From positions 434,001 through 498,000 of the forward strand of contig NZ_AP019773.1 of NCBI RefSeq assembly GCF_009936175.1: 64,000 nt of DNA, read 5' to 3'. Origin of the DNA: Bartonella quintana (lineage in GTDB: Bacteria > Pseudomonadota > Alphaproteobacteria > Rhizobiales > Rhizobiaceae). Shown piece after piece: positions 725-44,305 of this stretch (its first letter is position 1; every line of letters begins with the position of its first letter). The notes under the pieces are model-generated. The model was not told the DNA's origin. It ran no database searches and worked only from the letters and a program-made list of their open reading frames with translations. Made by a program: the position numbers and the translations under genes.

Positions 725-1630
725 GTGGCGTTATCATTGGATTGGGATAAGTTAAGGGTTTTTCATGCTGCGGCAGAAGCGGGTTCTTTTACGCATGCCG
801 CTCAAAGGCTTCATTTATCCCAATCAGCAATTTCGCGACAGGTTTCAGCTTTAGAGCAGGAGGTTGGTGTGTTTCTGTTTCAGCGTCATGCACGTGGTTT
901 GATCCTTACAGAGCAGGGTGAGATTCTTTATCGTACAACGCATGATGTTTTGATGAAGCTTGAAAGCGCGCATTCGCAATTAAGTGAAAGCTGTGAAAAA
1001 CCAGCAGGGAATTTGCGTGTTACATCGACCTGCGGAATGGGGTCAGGGTGGCTTGTGGAACACATGCCTGAATTCCTGAGTCTTTATCCGGATATACGGA
1101 TTCAACTCCTGTTTGATGATAAGGAACTTGATCTGACGATGCGTCATGCAGACTGTGCTGTTCGTTTACAAAAGCCTCAACAGCCTGATCTTATACAAAA
1201 AAAATTATTTACAATTCACATGCATGTTTATGCTTCAAAAAAATATATTGCAAATTATGGCAAACCAGAAAAATTATCTGAGCTCGATGAACACCGGATT
1301 ATTTCATTCGGTGAACCTGTTCCACCTTATTTGTCTGGTTTAAATTGGTTGGAAAAGGCTGGTAAAGGTGATGGATCTTTGCGCCCTTCAGTACTGCGAA
1401 TCAATAATATTATTTCGATCAAGAATGCGCTTATGTGTGATCTTGGTATTGCTGTGCTTCCTGATTATATCGTAGATAATGATGAGCACCTTGTGCGTCT
1501 TTTTCCTGATATGGTTGATATCCCTTCCTTTGATACTTTTTTTTGTTATCCTTATGCTTTAAAGAATTTGGCAAAGCTAAAAGCTTTTCGAGATTATATT
1601 TTTTCAAAAGCACGTCAGTGGTCTTTTTAA
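725..1630 (+). CDS. lsrB: LysR-type regulator LsrB/VtlR
   Basis: A 301-residue LysR-family transcription factor with an N-terminal winged helix-turn-helix (about residues 7-66, including LSQSAISRQVSALE) and a periplasmic-binding-like effector domain (about 95-295). It starts with GTG, preceded by AAGAGGT at a suitable distance. The position right after trxB matches Sinorhizobium LsrB and Brucella VtlR, regulators linked to redox response, envelope functions and control of AbcR sRNAs. Cysteines are seen at 90, 103, 144, 238 and 274. From memory, Cys238 is a redox-sensing residue in Sinorhizobium LsrB, so redox sensing here is an inference. The sRNA-like element immediately downstream fits this assignment. 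LysR membership is certain; the orthologue name rests on synteny. Confidence 0.85.
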   Translation: MALSLDWDKLRVFHAAAEAGSFTHAAQRLHLSQSAISRQVSALEQEVGVFLFQRHARGLILTEQGEILYRTTHDVLMKLESAHSQLSESCEKPAGNLRVTSTCGMGSGWLVEHMPEFLSLYPDIRIQLLFDDKELDLTMRHADCAVRLQKPQQPDLIQKKLFTIHMHVYASKKYIANYGKPEKLSELDEHRIISFGEPVPPYLSGLNWLEKAGKGDGSLRPSVLRINNIISIKNALMCDLGIAVLPDYIVDNDEHLVRLFPDMVDIPSFDTFFCYPYALKNLAKLKAFRDYIFSKARQWSF

Positions 1631-1728
1631 TAATGTAGTATTTTAAGCTATGTGTTTAATGCATAGCAGATACGCGTAAGTCTTTATTGTGCTTTTTCTT
1701 ATAAAATGACATAGAGTACTATCTCTTG

Positions 1729-1850
1729 ATTATGTTGCCTCCCATTGCATTTTCTTGAGTGTTCCCTTACGAAGATCTGTCAGATTGATTTTATCTCTGA
1801 AGGTTTTCCAAACTTGCCGGATGTACGTGTCCGGTTTTTTTTTATTTTTT
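1729..1850 (+). ncRNA. Candidate AbcR (alpha-r15) family trans-acting sRNA
   Basis: About 120 bases downstream of lsrB carry an anti-Shine-Dalgarno motif CCTCCC (1738-1743), a second pyrimidine-rich GTTCCC motif (1761-1766) and a strong intrinsic terminator. A possible -10 box TACTAT lies at 1717-1722 without a clear -35, as expected of an activator-dependent promoter. In Agrobacterium, Sinorhizobium and Brucella the AbcR sRNAs lie beside or are controlled by the LsrB/VtlR regulator and block ribosome binding on transporter mRNAs through CU-rich loops. No protein frame here looks real. The element, its ends and its family are inferred from context and motifs, not from alignment. Confidence 0.6.
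1816..1850 (+). terminator. Rho-independent terminator of the AbcR-like sRNA
   Basis: Stem CCGGA (1817-1821) pairs with TCCGG (1830-1834) around an 8-base loop and is followed by nine T, an A and six more T. It is one of the clearest intrinsic terminators in the window and is not next to a coding stop, which suggests an independent short transcript. Confidence 0.75.
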
Positions 1851-2444: not shown

Positions 2445-3761
<1,317 letters not shown>

Positions 3762-26055: not shown

Positions 26056-26132
26056 GGGCCTGTAGCTCAATTGGTTAGAGCCAGCGGCTCATAACCGCTT
26101 GGTTGGGGGTTCGAGTCCCTCCGGGCCCACCA
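26056..26132 (+). tRNA. tRNA with CAU anticodon (tRNA-Ile2 or elongator tRNA-Met)
   Basis: A 77-base tRNA with encoded CCA. The acceptor stem GGGCCTG/CGGGCCC pairs over seven positions, the D arm is AGCTCAATTGGTTAGAGC, the anticodon stem-loop is CAGCGGCTCATAACCGCTTG with CAT at the anticodon, and the T arm is GGGGGTTCGAGTCCCTC. It is not the initiator, because the first acceptor pair is fully matched. CAU tRNAs of this shape are often annotated Met, but the body resembles the tRNA-Ile2 whose C34 is modified to lysidine. The island relics that begin downstream make it a plausible old integration site. Confidence 0.92.
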
Positions 26133-43911: not shown

Positions 43912-44305
43912 TGTCAGTCGGCTGGGCAACCGCGCTTGTTCAATGCCTAAAAGTGGCAGGTGAGGAAAGTCCGGGCTCCATGGAAAAACGGTGCCGGGTA
44001 ACACCCGGCGGGGGCGACCCTAGGGAAAGTGCCACAGAAAGCAAACCGCCTATTTTTATAGGTAAGGGTGAAAGGGTGGAGTAAGAGCCCACCGCGCATT
44101 CAGTAATGAATGTGGCAAGGTAAACCCCACCGGGAGCAAGACCAAATAGTAATGACGCGCAAGGCTTAGACTTGCAGCCGGTTTCCGGGCGAGTCATTCG
44201 GGTAGGTTGCACGAGGCGGATGGTAACATCCGTCCCAGATGAATGGTTGCCATGTAAAGTGTAAACTTTACCATACAGAACCCGGCTTACAGGCCGACTG
44301 ATATT
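43912..44305 (+). ncRNA. rnpB: RNase P RNA, bacterial class A
   Basis: Catalytic RNA that removes tRNA 5' leaders. The closing helix P1 is TCAGTCGG (43914-43921) with CCGACTGA (44294-44301). Conserved pieces are present in order: the CRI-type GAGGAAAGTCCGGGCTCC, the GTGCCACAGAAA block, AAGGGTGAAAGGGTGG, AGAGCCCACCGCG, GGCAAGGTAAACCCCACCGG, and the 3' block CAGAACCCGGCTTACAG. The tRNA-CCA binding GGT loop lies in the GTAGGTTGCACGAGG area. A TTGACG box at 43885-43890 may be the -35 element, but the TATAAA nearby is too close, so the promoter is uncertain. It precedes the dcw cluster, as in other Rhizobiales. Confidence 0.97.

Follow-up and report, generated by a model that had tools for sequence, protein, structure and literature searches.

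The interval 1721-1843 of the window (the whole 64,000-nucleotide stretch of the Bartonella quintana genome analysed here; the genome has 1,588,683 bases) probably encodes a small RNA of the AbcR/ar15 family, most likely activated by LsrB/VtlR; we put the probability of this explanation as a whole at about 0.9. In Brucella and in rhizobia, AbcR RNAs and VtlR influence how the bacteria associate with their hosts. What appears to be new is the decay or absence of AbcR in at least three Bartonella lineages in which VtlR is kept. No account of AbcR in Bartonella was found in the open-licence literature searched, and a prior mention is possible; the relevant passage of one paper mentions a Mesorhizobium sRNA with Bartonella homologues and does not name it (PMC5596092). 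The features of the locus are as follows.

725..1630, + strand: lsrB/vtlR orthologue, a LysR-type regulator of 301 aa with a GTG start (Pfam, PDB match, orthologue survey)
1647..1667, no strand: palindrome GCTATG-N9-CATAGC, candidate VtlR/LsrB operator, centred at about -64 (conservation, fixed spacing)
1687..1692, + strand: putative -35 element TTGTGC (TTG conserved in the genus alignment; 17-bp spacer)
1710..1715, + strand: putative -10 element CATAGA (aligned with CATAT in relatives)
1721..1843, + strand: predicted AbcR/ar15-family sRNA of about 123 nt with three stem-loops, ends approximate (R2, ar15, fold)
1739..1744, + strand: M1 motif CTCCCA in the loop of stem-loop 1, anti-Shine-Dalgarno (exact Brucella M1; fold)
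1761..1766, + strand: M2 motif GTTCCC in the linker between stem-loops 1 and 2 (exact Brucella M2; single-stranded in the fold)
1816..1843, + strand: intrinsic terminator, stem-loop 3 and U tract (terminator scan; double changes in helix 4)

The lsrB/vtlR locus and the family of the sRNA

The protein encoded at 725-1630 contains the Pfam domains HTH_1 and LysR_substrate and matches PDB entry 9hh1, the structure of A. tumefaciens LsrB (PMC11975290), over its full length with 444 bits, compared to 109 bits for the next PDB match. On this sequence evidence the protein is identified as LsrB, as the original prediction had it. None of the best 25 NCBIfam models scored above its own cut-off. The cysteines C144 and C273, conserved among the LsrB proteins compared in a paper on LsrB, have C144 and C274 as their counterparts here. 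The protein is 94% identical to the LysR protein of Bartonella koehlerae; at E <= 1e-40, an orthologue with no inner stops was found in all 61 Bartonella genomes searched, which sample a larger group, and, at E <= 1e-60, an orthologue was found in 139 of 150 genomes of the order, the window genome included. The gene is preceded by trxB (ending at 668), as in A. tumefaciens, where trxB-vtlR is followed by abcR1 and abcR2 (PMC7486931). In the window, lysR is followed by a stretch without convincing genes and then by an aminotransferase gene on the opposite strand (2445-3647). The stretch after the LysR gene had been described as gene-free, and indeed the sRNA is overlapped only by unconvincing ORFs of 65 and 72 aa; the approximately 580 bp after the sRNA (1861-2444), up to the aminotransferase gene, also hold no convincing gene.

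The sRNA starts 90 bp past the lsrB/vtlR stop codon, on the same strand. Among 4,227 Rfam families, ar15 (RF02345) was the best in the intergenic region, matching 1721-1839 over its full model length with 19.6 bits (E = 0.19), that is, below the gathering score of 40. The latter is a curation threshold, and membership is argued here from an independent profile, from structure and motifs, and from the locus. When the window was scanned at the gathering score, nothing was found at the sRNA site, and the sole matches at that level were RNase P RNA (43914-44305, 323 bits) and a tRNA (26056-26129). Other weak matches at the site in a permissive run (mir-2229, Esr41, snoRNAs and others) were unsupported and were rejected. 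At the homologous syntenic place, ar15 scored above gathering in 8 of 37 Bartonella genomes and was below the cut-off or absent in the other 29, including the window genome. Among 61 relatives, the cut-off was exceeded in 8, every one of them Bartonella, and in 14 control genomes there were three weak signals and none above the cut-off.

The independent model, R2, comprised 19 gathering-level members, namely 8 Bartonella copies and 11 named relatives (Brucella, Pseudochrobactrum, Phyllobacterium, Paramesorhizobium, Mesorhizobium and others), with the window lineage left out. R2 matched 1720-1843 at 44.2 bits (E = 8.9e-12, the E-values of this model being rough); the next match in the window had 9.5 bits (E = 0.57), and across the whole genome the sRNA site was the sole match at E <= 0.1. 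The structure predicted for R2 differs from the three-stem form, so that the model acts mostly as a sequence profile. The proposed covariance-model check was thus negative with Rfam's own model at its gathering score and positive with the lineage-left-out one. The assignment to the AbcR/ar15 family, which upholds the original prediction, follows from the R2 match, the gathering-level ar15 matches at the syntenic place in other Bartonella, and the exact M1 and M2 motifs. A plasmid search with the intergenic region returned no match.

Structure, pairing motifs and putative promoter region

When folded, 1721-1843 forms three stem-loops (-29.1 kcal/mol, z = -3.06, 1 of 200 shuffles as stable), with the same minimum free energy and centroid structures; the longer interval 1700-1855 gave z = -1.65, with 12 of 200 shuffles as stable. 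This is the layout expected of an AbcR RNA: three stem-loops, of which the first has M1 in its loop and the third is the terminator, with M2 between the first two. Target regulation by Brucella abortus AbcR requires the motifs M1 (CUCCCA), located in the first hairpin, and M2 (GUUCCC), located between the first and second hairpins (PMC5461406). Both pyrimidine motifs that had been pointed out are present, the anti-Shine-Dalgarno CCTCCC at 1738-1743 and GTTCCC at 1761-1766, and the combination CTCCCA-N{10,30}-GTTCCC occurs once in the 64-kb window (shuffle mean 0.08; a match in 8 of 100 shuffles). The terminator hairpin at 1816-1835 (8 pairs, a 4-nt loop, then a T run) had been described as very strong; it is there, but shuffled sequences contained on average 0.7 terminators in the same scan, so that the terminator alone is unremarkable.

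Across 46 distinct Bartonella copies, the consensus structure has 23 pairs, with 99.3% of the cells paired, whereas slid versions of it pair 37-55% (at most 54.5%), a control that leans towards the derived structure given that RNAalifold obtained the latter from the same 46-row alignment. Changes on both sides were observed in 8 pairs, a number reached in none of 500 shuffles; further pair types, a measure of covariation, were not above shuffles (106 of 500 reached the observed count). The double changes are located in helices 2, 3 and 4; helix 1 hardly varies and so carries little information. The 46 rows were drawn from 52 copies detected with the palindrome-anchored script, leaving out two more diverged copies (G016, G030) and four close to retained rows (G063, G064, G070, G071).

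The palindrome, with the variants that the script allows, accompanies the sRNA in 52 of the 61 Bartonella genomes, 5 to 1968 bp from the lsrB stop codon, and lies 90 or 91 bp before CCTCCC wherever CCTCCC is intact. In part of the genus (L130/G063, L131/G064, L132/G074, L133/G078 and others), approximately 0.3-2 kb of extra DNA separates lsrB from an intact palindrome-sRNA block. The short distance of 90 bp and the common strand in the window might suggest that the element is merely the 3' UTR of lsrB with its terminator, rather than an independent sRNA. We regard this as highly improbable: the block is found as far away as the upper end of the above range with its internal spacing unchanged, promoter-like elements precede the window sRNA itself, and in relatives the AbcR RNAs are transcribed from promoters of their own (PMC7143759, PMC8844928). 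A promoter consensus scan did not flag the putative -35 and -10 elements; the hexamers are non-consensus, and their assignment is based on conservation.

In S. meliloti, the abcR1 promoter contains an LsrB/VtlR box, GCAT-N3-TG-N3-T, at -61 to -49, and its activity fell more than 22-fold once the motif region was removed (PMC8844928). The Bartonella palindrome overlaps the place of this box in relatives. At 16 of 17 named loci, all but that of Hoeflea, an exact box lies before the first sRNA copy, -61 to -63 relative to the start of the model; before second copies, it is absent in Shinella, Sinorhizobium, Agrobacterium and Hoeflea and present in Rhizobium multihospitium. Within Bartonella, 13 of the 61 genomes have an exact box at the sRNA locus, and in the window, 5 of the 7 fixed letters are found (2 differ), at -60 and overlapping the palindrome. 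The published box is a weak pattern, with 12 exact matches elsewhere in the 64 kb. Given the inexact box of the window lineage, the sRNA could be an AbcR independent of VtlR, for instance of the kind of the RpoH-driven AbcR2 of Sinorhizobium. This appears unlikely in view of the association of the box with first copies and its absence from second copies in Shinella, Sinorhizobium and Agrobacterium, and given that the Bartonella palindrome lies at the same distance, with the exact box there in 13 genomes. Activation by LsrB/VtlR is the favoured interpretation. Elsewhere in the genome, such palindromes, with one mismatch allowed, occur at the control level (32 vs. 32); the sole other exact CTATG-N9-CATAG palindrome is at G000:C1:1193092-1193110 (L226), near a decarboxylase-like ORF.

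Copy number and decay of AbcR

Copies at lsrB were counted at the ar15 cut-off in a sample of 20 of 72 non-Bartonella lsrB loci. In 17 of these 20 named relatives, ar15 was above the cut-off, with one copy in 12 and a tandem pair in 5 (Agrobacterium, Rhizobium multihospitium, Sinorhizobium, Shinella and Hoeflea); no gathering-level match at lsrB was found in Ochrobactrum RH2CCR150, Mesorhizobium Root554 or Aureimonas Leaf427. The single-copy group includes every Brucella-, Phyllobacterium- or Mesorhizobium-like relative with an ar15 match at lsrB. Among 17 further order-level lsrB loci, which were excluded from these counts, only 2 had gathering-level matches, a tandem pair in one and a single copy in the other, and another 3 had weaker matches. 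Because 12 of the 17 relatives with ar15 at lsrB likewise have one copy, a single copy there is not peculiar to Bartonella. In the window genome, R1 and R2 each have one match. Weaker extra matches of R1 or R2 occur in other genomes; among the 14 of them that were read (2 by eye, 12 by script), none qualifies as a second AbcR: all lack M1 and M2 and match chiefly through a terminator. The observation of a single copy therefore holds genome-wide, whereas its interpretation as a simplified tandem circuit was mostly wrong. In nine Bartonella genomes outside the window clade, weak R2 matches mark a different conserved RNA-like element of about 90 nt that ends in a terminator and lacks M1 and M2 (loci L339-L346 and L337, in G079, G007, G018, G065, G082, G014, G076, G021 and G003).

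Compared to AbcR1 of Agrobacterium tumefaciens and Sinorhizobium meliloti (ar15, RF02345), the window element occupies the same place after trxB-lsrB and shares three stem-loops and M1- and M2-type motifs, with a candidate operator where the LsrB box of those genomes lies (about -61) and a putative sigma-70-type promoter. However, the Agrobacterium and Sinorhizobium genomes have a tandem second copy, none being found in the window genome, and ar15 scores 121.7 and 68.5 bits at the Agrobacterium locus and 111.6 and 100.6 bits at the Sinorhizobium locus, compared to 19.6 in the window. The window copy is also visibly richer in AT, and its stem-loop 2 is longer; in Bartonella this stem-loop carries an insertion relative to the named relatives. 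Brucella AbcR2 is activated by VtlR, lies near vtlR and has M1 and M2 identical to those of the window (PMC5461406, PMC12595884); Brucella endophytica (L154) is arranged in the same way, with a single gathering-level copy at lsrB. Unlike the window genome, that of B. abortus carries a further AbcR on a different chromosome (PMC5461406). Two sets of intergenic RNAs described earlier in Bartonella differ from the window element: Brt1-9 are 194-203 nt long and precede trp genes (PMC5387305), and the conserved sRNAs named in the relevant part of the report on the B. bacilliformis set include ar45 and the speF leader and no AbcR (PMC7717549).

Among the 61 Bartonella genomes, 46 have the palindrome together with M1 and M2, 4 have the palindrome and M2 without M1 (G004, G024, G030, G031), 2 have the palindrome alone (G015, G016), and 9 were not recognised by the palindrome script. 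Six of these 9 have degraded remnants detected with R1 (G005, G022, G025, G069, G083, G084), whereas R1 has no match in G009, G033 and G075 (58 of 61 genomes matched; the 3000 bp after lsrB were read). In G022, an exact palindrome precedes the degraded RNA, and the script's M1 flag for this genome is a stray match. On the LysR tree, which is a single-gene tree, the 8 genomes lacking all three of palindrome, M1 and M2 require at least 3 changes. On this tree, AbcR has decayed or is missing in at least three Bartonella lineages, with VtlR uninterrupted in all 61 genomes.

Such decay raises the possibility that the window element is itself a decaying or non-functional relic, and its R1 and R2 scores are the lowest among the members of its 34-row clade with both motifs. 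Nevertheless, the palindrome, M1, M2, the three helices and the terminator are all intact in the window, and on the LysR tree the palindrome and both motifs are retained in 33 of the 34 rows of its clade, which makes a relic quite improbable.

The dN/dS values (NG86) of LysR ranged from 0.04 to 0.16 in 8 pairs with lost or decayed AbcR versus 0 to 0.08 in 14 other pairs (one of the comparison pairs includes G024, which is without M1). LysR remains under purifying selection in the lineages with lost or decayed AbcR; the higher dN/dS values may reflect some relaxation. Bartonella offers a natural comparison among close relatives that have the complete RNA, that have lost M1 but retain M2, or that no longer have the RNA, the regulator gene being uninterrupted in each case. 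The role of VtlR in the absence of AbcR, and the question of separate evolution of the two pairing motifs, can thereby be addressed.

Predicted regulation and the DUF1127 gene

As the single AbcR of its genome, the window sRNA would be the counterpart, by its location and kind of promoter, of the copy that LsrB/VtlR activates in relatives, that is, abcR1 of Agrobacterium and Sinorhizobium and abcR2 of Brucella. The most likely course is that LsrB/VtlR, the product of the adjacent upstream gene, binds the palindrome at 1647-1667 and switches on a sigma-70 promoter, and the resulting RNA of about 123 nt would end at its own terminator. With Hfq, the gene for which is present in 4 of 4 genomes tested, M1 in the loop and M2 in the linker would be exposed for pairing with mRNAs, and such pairing would block the translation or cause the decay of transport-related messages.

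Repression of transporter mRNAs by AbcR in Bartonella may be expected by analogy with the family. Binding-protein genes, like hfq, are present in the window genome; when pairing was predicted for five of them against 32 ORF starts of the window, the best rank was 3 of 32 and nothing was convincing. Across 31 loci, in one of which no start was located, complements of the M1 and M2 hexamers at the starts of binding-protein genes showed no conservation.

The main targets that VtlR activates in Brucella melitensis are AbcR2 and three DUF1127 genes (PMC12595884). A DUF1127 gene above the Pfam cut-off is present in 58 of the 61 Bartonella genomes; in the window genome and in G023 the match is below the cut-off, and G081 has none. 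The gene of the window genome (G000:C1:1503140-1503208, L280) is a 39-aa frame with 21 bits, and no box is recognisable there. Among the 62 upstream regions read from 60 genomes, 25 contain the box exactly, reversed and 89-113 bp ahead of the DUF1127 domain match (0 of 200 shuffled draws); the box has a single mismatch in 12 others and two or three mismatches, which is the chance level, in the remaining 25. The exact-box cases include all three genomes without an AbcR match; that of G084 is out of register. The three genomes without a good DUF1127 gene all keep the palindrome, M1 and M2. Because this also holds for 46 of the 61 genomes overall, the association of a weak or missing DUF1127 gene with an intact AbcR is suggestive only. 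We also considered that the operators of the two promoters, abcR and DUF1127, had changed in parallel, and dropped this idea because the lineages do not agree.

Tentatively, and with odds somewhat against it, the Bartonella VtlR regulon might have been reduced to some two direct targets, namely abcR and a single DUF1127 gene, with lineages losing either of them; the window genome, in which the DUF1127 gene and its box seem damaged, would have kept AbcR, possibly as its sole recognisable target. Under such a shrunken regulon, several lineages would have dropped AbcR, some of them M1 before M2, and kept VtlR and a DUF1127 gene, often with a VtlR box.
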